Assembly: GCA_021129695.1 (NCBI GenBank)
Contig: JAJOKU010000026.1
Location: 1 to 13,454, forward strand
Reading direction: 5' to 3'
From: a candidate division NPL-UPA2 bacterium
GTDB lineage: Bacteria; NPL-UPA2; JAGMAN01
DNA: 13,454 nt
The notes beneath the pieces are model-generated. The model was not told the origin of the DNA. It made no database searches and saw only the letters and a list, made by a program, of their open reading frames with translations. The number at the start of each line of letters is the position of its first letter. Position 1 is the stretch's first letter. Of the stretch, positions 11-5,119 are shown one piece after another. The translations under genes were made by a program, and so were the position numbers.

Positions 11-1036
11 TTGGCTCAGAATGACACGCCAATAGAACTCTATTTTCGGAACAAAAGTTTAGGAGTAGTTGCCAGGGAATTGAATCAAAGAAGTTTTAAG
101 ACAAAGAAGGGTAAGTTATTCTCAAAAGAGAGTATCAGAACAATCCTTAAGAATCCCCTCTATGTAGGAATGGTTCTTTACAAAGGTAAGGTTTACAAGA
201 GTGAGCATCAGGGGATTGTAGAGAAGGAGAAATGGCAGAGGATTCAGAATCTTTTGGAAGAAAATTACAAAGAAAGAGGAAGGATTGAAAAGGATAGGCA
301 TCAGTATCTCCTTAAAGGACTGGTCAAGTGTGGAGATTGCAAATTTCTTATGACCCCCAAATCAGCTAAAAGTGGTCAGTATTTCTATTACAGTTGCACG
401 GTCAATAATCGGTTTGGTAGAGATAATTGTAGTATCAGGGCAGTCTCGGCTCCAGAGTTGGAAAGAGTCGTTGTCTTTGGACTAAAAGAAATTCAGAGAA
501 AGGAAGACCTTCTTGATGAGATGATTAGAAAGGCTACTCAGGTTTCCAAAGATGGGATTAAACCATTGCAAGAAGAGAAGGAAACCAAAGAGAAAGAATT
601 AGAAGAAGTCAAAAAGACCATTAGGACTTTTATTGACTCCCTCAAAGATGGTTCCAAGACTTTAGGATTGATAGAGGACGAGTTGGAAGAATTGGAAGAG
701 AAAAAGAAAAATCTGGAAAGGGATATAAATCTTCTCTCAATCAGGATTGAAGAAAAGAAGCGGTATGTAGTTGATGGAGAGGTTTTGAAAAATCACCTTC
801 AGGAGTTCGGTATTATTTTTGACCATCTTAAGCCTCTTGACCAGCAGAGACTCCTTCATATTCTCTTGAGAGAGGTTGTCTTCTCTGGTGACAGAATAAA
901 AATAAGCCTGTGGGATTTACCCTCCACAGGCTTATCACTTCAGGAAACCATCACTTCTGACTGGTTCGCCAATAGTCAAATCTGGCTCCCCGGGCAAGAC
1001 TCGAACTTGCGACAAGGTGGTTACAGGGTCCCCTGA
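11..1036 (+). CDS. Large serine recombinase, C-terminal part (5' truncated)
   Basis: This is the DNA-binding half of a large serine recombinase, the enzyme class that integrates and excises phages and mobile elements through a serine-DNA intermediate. Residues about 8-90 match the Recombinase domain, with the typical ELYFRNKSLGVVARELN and ILKNPLYVG stretches. Cys107, Cys110, Cys129 and Cys140 form the zinc beta-ribbon, and residues about 185-250 are a Lys/Glu-rich coiled coil. The N-terminal catalytic resolvase domain with its active serine is absent: the frame is open to the window edge, and the first 30 bases look unrelated to the family. A TTG at base 11 is only the first possible start, not a convincing one. 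The last 20 or so residues (WLPGQDSNLR and after) are the antisense of the tRNA-Asn 3' exon read as protein, so the true C-terminus is unclear. It is convergent with the tRNA. It is either an edge-cut gene or a decayed remnant. Confidence 0.75.
   Translation: MAQNDTPIELYFRNKSLGVVARELNQRSFKTKKGKLFSKESIRTILKNPLYVGMVLYKGKVYKSEHQGIVEKEKWQRIQNLLEENYKERGRIEKDRHQYLLKGLVKCGDCKFLMTPKSAKSGQYFYYSCTVNNRFGRDNCSIRAVSAPELERVVVFGLKEIQRKEDLLDEMIRKATQVSKDGIKPLQEEKETKEKELEEVKKTIRTFIDSLKDGSKTLGLIEDELEELEEKKKNLERDINLLSIRIEEKKRYVVDGEVLKNHLQEFGIIFDHLKPLDQQRLLHILLREVVFSGDRIKISLWDLPSTGLSLQETITSDWFANSQIWLPGQDSNLRQGGYRVP
894..935 (-). terminator. Rho-independent terminator of the tRNA-Asn gene
   Basis: A perfect 12-bp inverted repeat (ATAAGCCTGTGG at 902-913 and its complement at 924-935, 10-base loop) is followed on the minus strand by the U-rich run TTATTTTTATT. 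It ends 47 bases beyond the tRNA CCA. It lies inside the 3' part of the convergent recombinase frame. The plus-strand side has no U-tract, so it works toward the minus strand only. Confidence 0.85.
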
Positions 1037-1218
1037 TATTTCTACCAGGCCTGGACTTTCTCTTTACCCTCGACTCTACGTTAGGGTAGCGGGTGTATAG
1101 TCTCTGCACTCCCCCCATTCTTGCTTTCGCCCCTAGAAATCGCAAGGCGATTTCGGGGACTCAGCCCTGGAAATGTTTCACATTTCACAGGGCAAGAAAG
1201 CATGGGGGTAGCTCAGGA

Positions 1219-1590
1219 TTACCATAGCCTTGCGGCCTTAGGCTTCCCTGAATTAGCCCGCTTTTTCATCCCGGTGTTTCCACCGGGAGCTGCGCTTGGA
1301 GCATGGATTTCTCGGTGGCAATTGGCACAAAGCATCACACATTTATCCAGCTCTTCCTTAACCCTATTCCAACTTCGAGTATATCCTTTATCAGATATGC
1401 TGAGGTCTTTTCCGGAAGAATTGTCGTGATGAAATTCAAGTGCGTCAATACAGCGATTGTAGCCGCATATGCTACATTTCCCGCCTTTGTACTCGATAGT
1501 CATAAGACGTATTTTTCTACGTCTCTTGTGTACGGCCCTAATCAAATACTGGCGGCGATCGCTATATTTTCGCCTCTCTTTCTTGGCCAA
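1219..1590 (-). CDS. Intron-encoded HNH homing endonuclease
   Basis: A 123-residue HNH nuclease, which would cut intronless tRNA-Asn alleles so that repair copies the intron into them. Zinc-binding pairs are Cys39/Cys42 (CSICGYNRC) and Cys88/Cys91 (LCANCHREIH). The catalytic HNH residues sit in LEFHHDN (His54, His55) and the CHREIH block (His92, His96). The first 30 residues are strongly basic, as expected for DNA contact. The TTG start is chosen because a strong Shine-Dalgarno AAAGGAGGTGA lies 5-6 bases ahead of it, and no ATG lies upstream in the intron. The start is 52 bases into the intron. Residues 1 to about 97 are encoded in the P1 loop. The tail from about 98 is encoded by the guide sequence, P2, P3, P4 and P5, and the TAA stop falls at the Q element. 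The tail looks unstructured and is probably shaped by RNA folding. Confidence 0.88.
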   Translation of the reverse strand: MAKKERRKYSDRRQYLIRAVHKRRRKIRLMTIEYKGGKCSICGYNRCIDALEFHHDNSSGKDLSISDKGYTRSWNRVKEELDKCVMLCANCHREIHAPSAAPGGNTGMKKRANSGKPKAARLW

Positions 1591-1622
1591 TTGTCACCTC
1601 CTTTCATGCCCCGTTTTGCTCA

Positions 1623-1637
1623 GCATCCTTCGGATGC
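1623..1637. repeat. Short hairpin with TTC loop near the intron 5' end
   Basis: GCATCC and GGATGC form a 6-bp stem around TTC, four bases inside the intron, in the P1 loop. The same stem-C-TTC-G-stem design recurs at 6269-6283 and 6294-6304 and, on the other strand, at 4684-4692 and 6351-6359. Confidence 0.6.
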
Positions 1638-1748
1638 TTCGCACAGCCACCTGCTCTACCGACTGAGCTACCGGGGAAAACTATTTTCCAAAGAACTTTT
1701 GCTTCTTTTTACCCATCCGGACTTAAAAAAACTTCTCTCTCCACTATC

Positions 1749-1980: not shown

Positions 1981-2580
1981 TCAGAACTCCCTTCTCCCAT
2001 CCAGGGCTTTGCCCAGGGTGACTTCATCAATGTATTCCAGGCTGCTCCCCATTGGAATCCCTCGAGCCAGCCGGGTGAGTTTTACTCCCAGGGGATTGAT
2101 CTGCTTGGCTAAATAGATGGCGGTAGCTTCCCCCTCGGCATTGGGATTGGTAGCTAAGATTATCTCTTGCGGCTTTTCTTCTTTTATCCTCTTCAAAAGT
2201 TCCTTTATTCTAAGATTCTCCGGGCCAATTCCATTTAAGGGCGAGAGGGCTCCAGAGAGGACATGGTAGAGACCTTTATACTGGCTTGTCTTCTCCATGG
2301 CAGCTACATCGCCTGGCTCTTCCACCACGCAGATTGGCGAACTATCTCGCTTGGGACTGCGGCAGATGTAACACTTCTCTTCTTCGCTCAGGTTCCCGCA
2401 GACCGAGCAGTAGTTCACCTTCTCCTTGAGCTCTCCAATGGCGGTGGCCAGGGCCTTCACCTCTTCCTTAGAGCTCTTAAGGAGGAAGATGGTCAACCGT
2501 TCAGCCGTCCTCGGCCCGATGCCGGGAAGCTTGCTTAGATTCTCAATTGCTCTTACTACCGCTTGAGGGTAACGGTACAT
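1981..2580 (-). CDS. recR: Recombination mediator RecR
   Basis: RecR works with RecO (and RecF) to load RecA on SSB-coated single-stranded DNA at gaps. The 199-residue product has normal length and domain order: helix-hairpin-helix at about 10-35 (LSKLPGIGPRTAERLT), a four-cysteine zinc finger (Cys58, 61, 70, 73), a Toprim domain at about 80-175 with the ATNPNAEGEATA motif, and the typical C-terminal segment LARGIPMGSSLEYIDEVTLG. It starts two bases after the ybaB stop and ends one base before the start of the porG remnant, so it is a coupled member of the dnaX-ybaB-recR operon. This gene trio is conserved in many bacteria. Confidence 0.97.
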   Translation of the reverse strand: MYRYPQAVVRAIENLSKLPGIGPRTAERLTIFLLKSSKEEVKALATAIGELKEKVNYCSVCGNLSEEEKCYICRSPKRDSSPICVVEEPGDVAAMEKTSQYKGLYHVLSGALSPLNGIGPENLRIKELLKRIKEEKPQEIILATNPNAEGEATAIYLAKQINPLGVKLTRLARGIPMGSSLEYIDEVTLGKALDGRREF

Positions 2581-2582
2581 TT

Positions 2583-2915
2583 TTAAGTTCCTGAGCCAAG
2601 CATCTGGGAAAGACCGGGCATGTCCAGTCCTCCGGCTATTCTGCCCATCTCCTCGGTCATCAACTGATGAGCCTTGCGCAATCCCTCATTTACGGCGGCC
2701 AGGACTAAATCCTCTAACATCTCCATATCTTTGGAATCCACCACTTCCGGCTCTATCTTTATGGAAAGAATTTGACCTTCGCCATTGACTTTGACGGTGA
2801 CCATCCCTCCCCCGGCGCTAGCCTCCACCGTCTTCTCCCGGAGTTCCTGCTGAACCTTAGCCATCTTCTCCTGAATTGTCTTTGCCTGACTTAACAGCTG
2901 CCATAATCCCTTCAT
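2583..2915 (-). CDS. YbaB/EbfC nucleoid-associated protein
   Basis: A 110-residue DNA-binding protein of the YbaB/EbfC family. These form dimers with a tweezer shape that bind DNA and associate with the nucleoid. Seen here are the helical N-terminus rich in Gln and Lys (AKTIQEKMAKVQQELREKTV), the glycine-rich strand turn ASAGGGMVTV, and the conserved block DLVLAAVNEGLRKAHQL. A Shine-Dalgarno GGAGG lies in the last codons of dnaX, and the start is four bases past the dnaX stop. Its usual place between dnaX and recR supports the call and hints at a role connected with replication or repair. Confidence 0.95.
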   Translation of the reverse strand: MKGLWQLLSQAKTIQEKMAKVQQELREKTVEASAGGGMVTVKVNGEGQILSIKIEPEVVDSKDMEMLEDLVLAAVNEGLRKAHQLMTEEMGRIAGGLDMPGLSQMLGSGT

Positions 2916-2919
2916 TCGG

Positions 2920-4521
2920 CTATCCCTCCTTCTTCTTCACTTCAACTATTCTGCCTCCAAATGTATCCAGGGCGGCTTTAATGATTGGCTCTTCCCTGAG
3001 TCTGCTGGTGAGCTCATCTTCTTTATCGGCGCTCCCTGGTTGACTGATTTTCACCTCCTTCCGCTTTGAACCGCTGAGGATGGGGTGGATCATTAGATCG
3101 TGAGCGAAGACCTCTTTCAACGCCCCTTCAATAATCTGCCTGATCTCGTTTCTCTCTACATTCTCTTTGTGGAAATTAAGCTCTCCGGGGAAAGCAACGG
3201 TTACTATCTTCTCACTCACTTTGACTGGGCTGCCTTCCTTTAAGAAGGCCTCGGCCGAAATTTTCTTCTCCTTCACCCGCTCTAATACCTGAGGCCAGCC
3301 CTCTCTGACTTTCTCCAGAGATAAAGTGCTCGGCTCAGGAGAAGCAGATTCTTCTCTCACTTTCTCCAGAGATAAAGTGTTCTTTCCAGAAGGAGCAACC
3401 TCTCTTTTTGCCTCAGTTGAGTTAGAGGCCGGTTTTAATCTGGTCAATTTTATGACGGCCAGTTCCAGGGGGATGCGACCTAACTGGGAGCGCCTCAAAT
3501 TCTCTTCTGCCTGGGAGATGGTGGCAATGGCTTCCTCCATCTCCTCAAAGCTGAAGTGGGCCGCCTCGCCTTTCAGCCTTTTAATGCTATCTTCAGGTAG
3601 GTCAACAAGCTCAACTCCTTCTCCGCCAACCTTGAGCATGAGCATGTTGCGGAAATGCTCAATGAGGTTAGCGCAGAAGAGACGAGGGTCTTTCCCCTCA
3701 CCAATGATAGCATCCACTAACTCCACTGCCCTTAAGGTATCTCCTTTAATCATGGCCTTGGTTAAATCAAGAAAGCGCTCCTCCTCCACCATCCCCAGGA
3801 TGGCATTTACCTCCTCCTCCACAATCTTCTCCCCTGCTGAGAAGGAGGCCAGCTGATCCAGGATGGAAAGGGCATCCCGCATGCTCCCCTCAGCGCCCCG
3901 GGCCATGGCGAAAAGCGCTTTCTCCTCTACCTTCAGCCCCTCTTCTTTAGCAATAAGTTTTAATCTCCCCATTAATTCAAGAACCGCAATCCTGCGGAAA
4001 TCGAACCGCTGGCAGCGGGAAAGAATAGTGAGCAATACCTTATGAGGCAAGGTGGTGGCGAAGATAAACTTCACATGCTCCGGTGGCTCCTCCAGCGTCT
4101 TAAGGAGGGCATTGAAAGCTTCCTGAGTAAGCATATGGACCTCGTCAATGATATAGATCTTGAACCTGTCCCGGCTGGGGGCAAACTTAACATTCTCCCT
4201 CAGGCTTCTTATCTCATCGATCCCCCGATTAGAAGCCCCGTCTATTTCCAATACATCCAGGCTGATGCTATCAGTAATCTCCTGACAGGAACCACATTTA
4301 TTACAGGGCTTAACCGTCGGACCATTCACACAGTTTAAAGCTTTGGCCAGGAGCCGGGCGGTGGTCGTCTTGCCAATTCCCCTGGGGCCGGCGAAAAGAT
4401 AGGCGTGAGCTACTTTCTTGGTGAGGATGGCGTTTCGCAGGGTGCGGGTAATGTGCTCCTGTCCGACCACTTCCTCAAAAGTTTGAGGTCGCCACTTCCT
4501 GGCTAAGACGATGTAAGTCAT
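2920..4521 (-). CDS. dnaX: DNA polymerase III subunit tau/gamma (clamp loader)
   Basis: The ATPase of the clamp loader that places the sliding clamp on primed DNA. The 533 residues show Walker A GPRGIGKT (45-52), a zinc module (Cys64, 73, 76, 79), Walker B IIDEVH (124-129), sensor 1 at FATT (154-157) and the arginine finger in SRC (168-170). The AAA+ lid follows to about 240 and the oligomerisation domain to about 370. A Pro/Ser/Glu-rich linker contains a duplicated TLSLEKVRE segment. The C-terminal region (about 395-533) is tau-like. I find no A-AAA-AAG slippery run, so a frameshifted short gamma form is not expected from that signal. The start is ATG at 4521 with only a weak ribosome site (AGTAGAG). 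The gene lies 57 bases downstream of tRNA-Ser(GGA), probably in one transcript with the tRNAs. Confidence 0.97.
   Translation of the reverse strand: MTYIVLARKWRPQTFEEVVGQEHITRTLRNAILTKKVAHAYLFAGPRGIGKTTTARLLAKALNCVNGPTVKPCNKCGSCQEITDSISLDVLEIDGASNRGIDEIRSLRENVKFAPSRDRFKIYIIDEVHMLTQEAFNALLKTLEEPPEHVKFIFATTLPHKVLLTILSRCQRFDFRRIAVLELMGRLKLIAKEEGLKVEEKALFAMARGAEGSMRDALSILDQLASFSAGEKIVEEEVNAILGMVEEERFLDLTKAMIKGDTLRAVELVDAIIGEGKDPRLFCANLIEHFRNMLMLKVGGEGVELVDLPEDSIKRLKGEAAHFSFEEMEEAIATISQAEENLRRSQLGRIPLELAVIKLTRLKPASNSTEAKREVAPSGKNTLSLEKVREESASPEPSTLSLEKVREGWPQVLERVKEKKISAEAFLKEGSPVKVSEKIVTVAFPGELNFHKENVERNEIRQIIEGALKEVFAHDLMIHPILSGSKRKEVKISQPGSADKEDELTSRLREEPIIKAALDTFGGRIVEVKKKEG
3308..3379. repeat. 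In-frame duplication in the dnaX linker
   Basis: The same 21 bases occur at 3308-3328 and 3359-3379, 51 bases (17 codons) apart, with weaker likeness in the sequence between and after. This encodes two copies of TLSLEKVRE in the linker between the clamp-loader core and the tau region. It looks like a diverging 51-bp tandem duplication. Confidence 0.8.
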
Positions 4522-4578
4522 GACTCTACTCTAATCTTCAAGGTACTGCCACTTCCCCATCTATCACGACCATTCCAG

Positions 4579-4665
4579 CGGAGAGGCTGGGATTTGAACC
4601 CAGGGTGAACATAAGCCCACACGTGCTCTCCAGGCACGCCCCTTAAGCCGCTCGGGCACCTCTCC
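4579..4665 (-). tRNA. tRNA-Ser(GGA)
   Basis: Acceptor GGAGAGG/CCTCTCC, anticodon stem CGTGC/GCACG with loop CTGGAGA (anticodon GGA), a long class II variable arm, and T arm CTGGG/CCCAG with loop TTCAAAT. The discriminator is G and CCA is not encoded. It is the last tRNA before dnaX. Confidence 0.95.
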
Positions 4666-4682
4666 AAGATACCCCCGCACAT

Positions 4683-4744
4683 AGCCGAAGGCAGTGCCGT
4701 AGGGCACTCCCTAATCAGCATCGGAATTTTCAAATTCCGATGCT
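4683..4744. repeat. Hairpin cluster within the tRNA operon
   Basis: Three adjacent inverted repeats lie between tRNA-Arg and tRNA-Ser(GGA): GCC-GAA-GGC (4684-4692), AGTGCC/GGCACT around 4693-4708, and a 13-bp stem with a 2-base loop (4717-4744). The 19 bases at 4683-4701 recur exactly at 6350-6368. No U-run follows on either strand, so these are not simple terminators. They could act as processing sites in the tRNA precursor or be members of a dispersed repeat family. Confidence 0.7.
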
Positions 4745-4750
4745 CCCGGA

Positions 4751-4825
4751 TACGCCTGCCGCGACTCGAACGCGGGACCTTTGGGTCCGCAACCCAACGC
4801 TCTATCCAAGCTGAGCTACAGGCGC
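4751..4825 (-). tRNA. tRNA-Arg(GCG)
   Basis: Acceptor GCGCCTG paired with CAGGCGT (one G-U pair), D arm with GCTC/GAGC, anticodon stem TTGGG/CCCAA with loop TTGCGGA (anticodon GCG, decoding CGC/CGU), and T arm CCGCG/CGCGG. The discriminator is A and no CCA is encoded. Most bacteria use an ACG anticodon edited to ICG here, so GCG is notable. Confidence 0.93.
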
Positions 4826-4854
4826 AGCAGCATTAAAAGCAAATGGATAATAAG

Positions 4855-4944
4855 CGGAGAGGCCGGGATTCGAACCCGGGGAGGAGTTATTCACCCCTCA
4901 ACTGCTTAGCAGGCAGCTGCCTTCAGCCGCTCGGCCACCTCTCC
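4855..4944 (-). tRNA. tRNA-Ser(GCU)
   Basis: Acceptor GGAGAGG/CCTCTCC (identical to the Ser(GGA) gene), anticodon stem GCTGC/GCAGT with loop CTGCTAA (anticodon GCU, AGC/AGU codons), a long variable arm, and T arm CCGGG/CCCGG with loop TTCGAAT. The discriminator is G and no CCA is encoded. Confidence 0.95.
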
Positions 4945-4947
4945 TCT

Positions 4948-5006
4948 GAACACAAATCTCACCAATTAGCGCAAATCTGTTCGGTGAATTGGTGCCAATC
5001 GGTGTT
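4948..5006. repeat. Imperfect inverted repeat between two tRNA-Ser genes
   Basis: GAACAC (4948-4953) and GTGTTC (5001-5006) enclose CACCAATT and AATTGGTG. The spacer repeats short ATTGGTG and AAATCT units and resembles the repeat block at 1749-1840 in style. No U-tract follows on the minus strand. Confidence 0.5.
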
Positions 5007-5032
5007 CTCTGAGCTTGTTTTGCACACTACCC

Positions 5033-5119
5033 TGGCGGAGGGCGAGGGATTTGAACCCCCAAGGGCTTTAAACCCGCCTGATTTCAAGTCAGGTGCCTTA
5101 CCGTTAGGACTAGCCCTCC
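5033..5119 (-). tRNA. tRNA-Ser(UGA)
   Basis: Acceptor GGAGGGC/GCCCTCC, anticodon stem CCTGA/TCAGG with loop CTTGAAA (anticodon UGA), a class II variable arm with GGG/CCC stem, and T arm GGGGG/CCCTC (one G-U pair). The discriminator is G and CCA is encoded. The D arm is short. It is the first gene of the tRNA-dnaX run. Confidence 0.93.

Follow-up and report, generated by a model that had tools for sequence, protein, structure and literature searches.

Introduction

The group I introns of bacterial tRNA-Leu(UAA), tRNA-Ile(CAU), tRNA-Arg(CCU) and tRNA-fMet genes share a group I core located in the anticodon loop, a terminal G and a U.G pair at the 5′ splice site. A 2007 compilation, in its accessible part, counts four tRNA hosts (PMC1995217); the usual place of the bacterial tRNA introns is given as 37/38 in the available text of a 2014 review (PMC4033280), and the tRNAscan-SE 2.0 paper, in the extract at hand, mentions group I introns in fMet and Ile2 (PMC8450103). 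A chloroplast survey places tRNA-Asn among the tRNAs that have no group I intron, according to the excerpt available (PMC9840617). Group I introns of 22-49 nt have been claimed in Arg, Gly and Lys genes in the accessible part of a cyanobacterial survey (PMC5733544); in our view, they are too short for group I.

The tRNA-fMet intron of Synechocystis carries an endonuclease, I-Ssp6803I, which belongs to the PD-(D/E)XK family and is specific for an anticodon region (PMC1995217). Outside tRNA genes, the archaeal rRNA and bacterial tmRNA introns are found with or without homing endonucleases in many phyla, as far as the extracts of PMC6125680 and PMC11915505 go. The tmRNA introns lie in the T-psi-C loop. 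All 39 archaeal group I introns of PMC6125680 are in rRNA genes, and all phage introns known by 2014 lie in protein genes, according to the available portion of another review of that year, devoted to bacterial group I introns (PMC3984707).

The intron described here interrupts the tRNA-Asn(GUU) gene of a candidate division NPL-UPA2 bacterium, on a contig of 13,454 nt (JAJOKU010000026.1, assembly GCA_021129695.1) analysed over its whole length and called the window below. It shares core, terminal G and U.G pair with the known bacterial tRNA introns, and differs from them by its host and by its site, 35/36; unlike the tmRNA introns, it does not lie in the T-psi-C loop. Its putative endonuclease is intron-borne like I-Ssp6803I and would likewise act near the anticodon, but it is of the HNH type and is encoded in the P1 loop. 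Related phage HNH endonucleases (phrog_2255 and relatives) are mostly free-standing beside an intact tRNA-Asn gene, whereas this one lies inside the intron.

We recognised no paper reporting a group I intron in tRNA-Asn in the accessible portions of the open-access literature, and a term search of the available text of PMC3984707 did not return the words asparagine, Asn or HNH. A preliminary description of this DNA had put forward the novelty of the site with caution, and this caution was apt: a 2025 preprint (Nakagawa), cited in PMC12641178, announces in its title a novel place of insertion in the tRNA genes of Patescibacteria. Compared by title alone, it deals with group I introns inserted at this novel tRNA site, in a group of bacteria that also hosts the tRNA-Asn intron. 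As the Nakagawa site may be tRNA-Asn 35/36, our claim to a new site is limited; what is least likely to have been published already is the location of the HNH gene in P1, the connection with phages and the spread beyond Patescibacteria.

Results

Interruption of a tRNA-Asn(GUU) gene at anticodon site 35/36

Two segments of the minus strand, one ending GGTGGCTGT, the other beginning TAACCACC and finishing with an encoded CCA (Table 1), join into a 76-nt tRNA-Asn(GUU) whose four stems of 7, 4, 5 and 5 bp are, by eye, fully paired. ARAGORN named the joined exons (without CCA) tRNA-Asn (gtt), which is none of the known tRNA intron hosts; run on the uncut window, it reported no tRNA at this locus. 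The anticodon is cut between positions 35 and 36, and splicing was placed after U35, the only position that yields a terminal G together with an anticodon loop of 7 nt. The two halves 619 nt apart, their perfect pairing and the split at 35/36 are as the preliminary description had them, and its expectation that a tRNA finder would miss the gene was borne out.

Table 1. Features of the tRNA-Asn locus in the window
Feature	Position	Strand	Remarks
Possible terminator of the tRNA unit	902..935	-	hairpin of 12 bp, then TTTT; by eye
3′ exon of tRNA-Asn	983..1023	-	CCA at 985-983; joined exons give tRNA-Asn
Group I intron, 619 nt	1024..1642	-	terminal G at 1024; RF00028 match and junctions
P9, CCUGGU/AUCAGG	1032..1049	-	RF00028 match and position check
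P7 3′ strand, AAGUC	1054..1058	-	UAGUC in three relatives; alignment
P8, ACCCU/AGGGU	1066..1087	-	by eye
P7 5′ strand, GACUA	1098..1102	-	end base A1098 opposite A1058, mismatch; alignment
Repeat-like insert in P6	1112..1200	-	ends approximate; missing from L030 and L031, mostly from L029
HNH endonuclease ORF, 123 aa	1219..1590	-	TTG start, stop within the core; phrog_2255 match
P3 5′ strand, GCGGG	1257..1261	-	pairs with CCCGC 1093-1089; by eye
P2 hairpin, CCCGGT/ACCGGG	1270..1287	-	by eye
Internal guide, GCAGCU	1288..1293	-	P1 with 5′ exon GGCUGU (1648-1643), U.G at the splice site; by eye
5′ exon of tRNA-Asn(GUU)	1643..1677	-	ends at U35; conserved in L029-L031

The Rfam group I intron model RF00028 matched the minus strand at 1312-1032 with 77.3 bits (E 1.4e-18; cut-off 50), and this was the sole group I match across the assembly. 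U1643, the last base of the 5′ exon, pairs with G1293 of the internal guide (GGCUGU/GCAGCU), some 350 nt into the intron and beyond most of the HNH open reading frame. The Rfam model pairs its own P1 positions inside the intron instead, with several non-pairs. The covariance-model search that had been suggested for this strand thus gave its match, and the full core first described stands as regards this match, the U.G pair of P1 and the terminal G; a mismatch at the end of P7 had been overlooked, and neither the HNH frame nor the P6 insert had been mentioned.

The intron is conserved at the identical site in two genomes of the same genus (L029 and L031, 324 and 196 nt) and one of the same order (L030, 214 nt). 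The tRNA-Asn gene is uninterrupted in another genome of the same order (L033) and in one of the same phylum (L032). Chance is excluded for the intron, because relatives keep it at the same site while others have an empty site there. With a probability of roughly 0.8, we conclude that this tRNA-Asn(GUU) gene is split by a group I intron that would splice itself and home by means of its HNH protein.

From the arrangement of these elements, the transcript is predicted to fold with P1 formed between GGCUGU and GCAGCU and the HNH message looped out. An external guanosine would attack after U35, and U35 would then attack after G1024, joining the exons into tRNA-Asn. The HNH protein, translated from unspliced RNA, would make a cut or nick close to the anticodon of intronless tRNA-Asn genes, into which repair would then copy the intron.

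As to the surroundings, a promoter scan gave 2 matches versus 1.2 expected. The putative terminator hairpin has a loop of 10 and is unlisted by the hairpin scan, whose loop limit is 8. A large serine recombinase gene (PF07508, PF13408) occupies positions 11-1036 of the plus strand, is truncated by the contig start, and converges on the tRNA-Asn 3′ end; recR lies at 1981-2580 (TIGR00615, 2.2e-79). The same layout of tRNA-Asn, recR and recombinase recurs at locus L266, and because of this repetition the tRNA-Asn gene is probably an attachment site of integrative elements. L266 comes from the viral collection and was rejected as a phage tRNA intron. Flanked by RecR (TIGR00615, E 6.8e-75) and, opposite, by a convergent large serine recombinase, it was read as a tRNA of a chromosome, bordering an integrated element, and not counted as phage-borne. 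An ordinary cluster of tRNA-Ser, Arg, Ser and Ser genes is found further on in the window (4578-5119, minus strand).

Introns at the tRNA-Asn site in other genomes

The sampling pattern, a tRNA-Asn 5′ half not followed by T, matched 19 of 386 genomes. RF00028 detected a group I intron at the tRNA-Asn site in 12 of the 386 (4 in the source order including the window, 8 elsewhere), which is a lower bound since the pattern was exact. The other seven matching genomes, in which the loop is CTGTG and was taken for that of tRNA-His, were dropped as uninterrupted tRNA genes (RF00005 over the match). A further scan, of named genome contigs, produced at least 117 loci, 52 of which carry a tRNA-Asn intron (51 distinct, as L133 repeats L030). 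The 65 loci discarded were mostly archaeal, with CTGT followed by A, a motif taken, without isotyping, to fit tRNA-Tyr with enzyme-spliced introns; the rest were stray matches or loci where no 3′ exon was found (e.g. L087, L102).

Together, the 12 introns from sampled genomes and the 51 from named contigs make at least 63 distinct tRNA-Asn introns of 196-710 nt. The collecting scripts accepted an intron only when a G was followed by a 3′ exon that pairs and begins with TAA, so the terminal G and the good cloverleaf are partly built into the set; in a run without the demand for G, all candidates of at least 190 nt that scored 21 or more nevertheless had G as their last base. Among the matches listed, RF00028 was above cut-off in 52 of the 63 introns (12/12, 13/19, 16/18 and 11/14 by batch), and a new search of the 11 misses brought this to 57 at E≤0.01. 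At E 0.01 the model gave no match for 6 of these 63 (L086, L089, L109, L137, L138, L175), in which P7-like motifs are still present. The guide motif GCAG[CT] was found in 63 of the 63 introns among the matches listed, such a 5-mer not being rare by chance. In the Clostridial L089, L137, L138 and L175, which RF00028 missed, P7 has undergone a double change (GACTT/AAGTC), and three of the four loci adjoin 5S rRNA.

The introns collected among the matches listed span about a dozen phyla and one archaeal contig. According to record titles and taxonomy, the hosts are Nitrospirota, Omnitrophota, Elusimicrobiota, several Patescibacteria, Bacillota (Clostridia), Rokuibacteriota, Planctomycetota, Deltaproteobacteria (two placed in Myxococcota), Cyanobacteriota, Bacteroidota/Ignavibacteriota, Stahlbacteria, Margulisbacteria and Ratteibacteria. 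In a tree of the cores (62 of 63 rows, L142 being left out by the length limit), the source-order introns form one clade (100/99); the Nitrospira-type introns stand apart from it, with a Rokubacterial one among them (99/99), and the starred branches force three label changes for Nitrospirota. Phylum labels required 18 changes on this tree, versus a mean of 33.1 when shuffled. This clustering indicates that inheritance within groups is common and that much of the spread is inherited.

Two further observations involve Nitrospira genomes. Nitrospira sp. CG24E (L110, about 2540-2990, minus strand) carries an additional tRNA-Asn 5′ half, after which comes an HNH fragment; this pair lies 1.6 kb upstream of another copy, whose intron has no HNH gene. 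A split-tRNA scan round 11 group I matches, one of them the tRNA-Asn copy L253, pointed by eye to tRNA-fMet as the host of three (L254, L255 and L261, the first Nitrospira and cyanobacterial genomes together accounting for two and one kind of host genome); its automatic assignments could not be relied on, and most of the 11 matches are left with no host assignment.

The archaeal contig (L086, Pacearchaeota) has at about 895-1390 a tRNA-Asn gene with a 423-nt intron, a truncated HNH frame and a core read by eye; the RF00028 search of this contig reported no match. This core groups with those of two Omnitrophota introns (97/89, core tree), and among 30 tRNA matches examined, of the 33 in the genome, ARAGORN named no Asn. 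The neighbouring genes encode a universal archaeal KH protein (E 2.4e-30, just below the model cut-off) and Taw3 (4.8e-38, below the model cut-off; TYW3 above the Pfam cut-off). Since these neighbours are archaeal, misbinning is unlikely; a misassembly is conceivable.

An HNH gene in the P1 loop and its phage relatives

The product of the open reading frame matched phrog_2255 (HNH) with E 7e-28, no Pfam family being found at 1e-3, and was 51-68% identical to 12 HNH ORFs from other tRNA-Asn introns. C39-C42, H54-H55 and C88-C91-H92 are invariant in the alignment of the 13 sequences. As most of the frame lies between the splice site and the guide, the gene sits in the P1 loop, with its end overlapping the core. 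The empty sites of L033 and L032 correspond to the very intron that here contains the HNH gene.

An HNH protein may be a passenger of an intron that splices, and not home to tRNA-Asn. In favour of this, an HNH ORF of at least 80 aa with the HH motif is missing from 49 of the 63 collected introns among the matches listed. It is present in the remaining 14 (truncated in L101), always in the P1 loop; some HNH-like motif was seen in 21 of the 63 among the matches listed, that of L089 at least being probably due to chance. Against a passenger, these 14 genes belong to one family, at the same P1 position, in introns from several phyla. In a protein tree, the window HNH groups weakly with the Omnitrophota and Elusimicrobia intron HNHs rather than with those of Nitrospira, and the tree speaks neither for nor against monophyly of the intron-borne HNHs (AU p 0.57, with 22 of the 42 inner branches open).

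Viral relatives also argue against a passenger. At least 567 stretches of viral contigs encode relatives of the window HNH, with identities up to 73%. Among the best 80 of these at least 567 loci, a sample chosen by likeness to the window HNH and containing near-copies, an intact tRNA-Asn gene lies at most 300 nt from the HNH ORF in 62; the other 18 have only other tRNAs nearby (12) or none (6). Grouping the same best 80 into clusters, 29 of 47 have a member adjoining tRNA-Asn, and within 250 nt of the HNH genes tRNA-Asn occurs 61 times, the next isotype being Gly with 21. A match was present in 390 phage records, and the five examined, chosen from the top 20 listed, all carry tRNA-Asn next to their HNH gene (Aeromonas phage LAh_6, Klebsiella phages Muenster and RCIP0023, Prevotella phage Lak-C1 and Vibrio phage F86). 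This adjacency points to tRNA-Asn as the putative target of the HNH family, and we consider a passenger HNH unlikely.

Some viral tRNA-Asn genes are themselves interrupted. In two tRNA-rich viral contigs (L276, 2499-2760, and L281, 870-1120, approximate positions), the interruptions of 194 and 206 nt display group I-like motifs by eye, with a free-standing HNH gene upstream; RF00028 found no match in either. Two other viral tRNA-Asn genes beside HNH genes (L283, 2368-2415, and L285, 2287-2334) contain, at exactly 35/36, hairpin-forming inserts of 48 nt, of which one ends in G and the other in A; they are too short to be group I introns. These inserts recall T4 gene 60, where a 50-nt insert lies beside a homing endonuclease gene.

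State of the window copy and number of tRNA-Asn genes

A second concern is that the intron is real and the window copy decayed, splicing poorly or not at all, with an intact tRNA-Asn gene in the missing part of the genome. By alignment, the window intron consists of the core common to L029, L030 and L031, to which are added the HNH gene, absent from these three near relatives, and the P6 insert. The extra insert, of some 80-90 nt, might betray decay; it resembles dispersed sequences of its own genome and of relatives (76-85% identity over 55-97 nt), and it belongs to a dispersed hairpin-rich repeat of these genomes (L373-L378). P7 speaks in the same direction, with 4 of 5 pairs formed and A1098/A1058 unpaired. 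The end pair is kept in 61 of the 62 scorable introns (54 A-U, 6 doubly changed to U-A, 1 G-U), the window alone being unpaired, and on account of this uniqueness the copy may be decaying, or may carry a sequence error; the mismatched base could be such an error. Against decay, the exons are still fully paired and the HNH frame is open.

The source assembly, a metagenome product of 167 contigs and 0.91 Mb, is 69.6% complete, which leaves room for a second gene. The search for an intact tRNA-Asn elsewhere, advised at the outset, found none in the assembled part: ARAGORN named no Asn among the 26 tRNA matches of the assembly, which is weak evidence since several other isotypes were missing too. 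By pattern, no intact tRNA-Asn gene was found in the 12 intron-bearing genomes tested, including two of the same genus and one of the same order. This pattern misses many genes, as the control found one in 50 of 98 sampled genomes only, none of the 7 intron bearers being among these 50. The single-contig Omnitrophota genome CP070684.1 likewise yielded no Asn among 40 tRNA matches, a weak result because Tyr, Ile(GAU), Ala(UGC), Gly(UCC) and Thr(UGU) were also missing from the isotypes that ARAGORN named in this genome. A decayed copy backed by a second gene appears quite unlikely.

Removal of the interruption by protein enzymes of the archaeal, bulge-helix-bulge type is highly improbable: the site in the anticodon loop recalls enzyme-spliced tRNA introns, but the group I core, the terminal G, the length of 619 nt and the bacterial host speak against it, and we know of no bacterial enzyme of this kind. 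An assembly artefact, conceivable in a metagenome of 167 contigs, is refuted for the junctions by separate assemblies of relatives that show the same ones, and is hardly credible overall.

Discussion

A group I intron that would splice itself out of tRNA-Asn and move with its HNH gene fits a cycle of gain, HNH loss and decay. We base this on the scatter over phyla, the empty sites in relatives, the HNH remnants, and the phage HNH relatives beside tRNA-Asn. HNH genes were seen at several stages: beside an intact gene, beside an interrupted gene, inside the intron and as a remnant; other introns have none. More tentatively, and at somewhat less than even odds, the 35/36 intron would stem from, or be mobilised by, an HNH lineage aimed at tRNA-Asn that phages keep as free-standing genes next to their own tRNA-Asn, and the intron would have crossed bacterial phyla and entered a DPANN archaeon. 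If this were true, an archaeal tRNA gene would host a group I intron, and the stages would document in nature the formation and decay of a mobile intron.

Since ARAGORN drops the split gene, the absence of Asn from the tRNA inventories of many uncultured lineages may be artificial. Phage and cellular copies gathered round one target would offer a testable case for the union of homing endonucleases and group I introns. For the bacterium itself, the intron system may be essential: if the interrupted gene is its only tRNA-Asn, the host would rely on a ribozyme for every asparagine codon.
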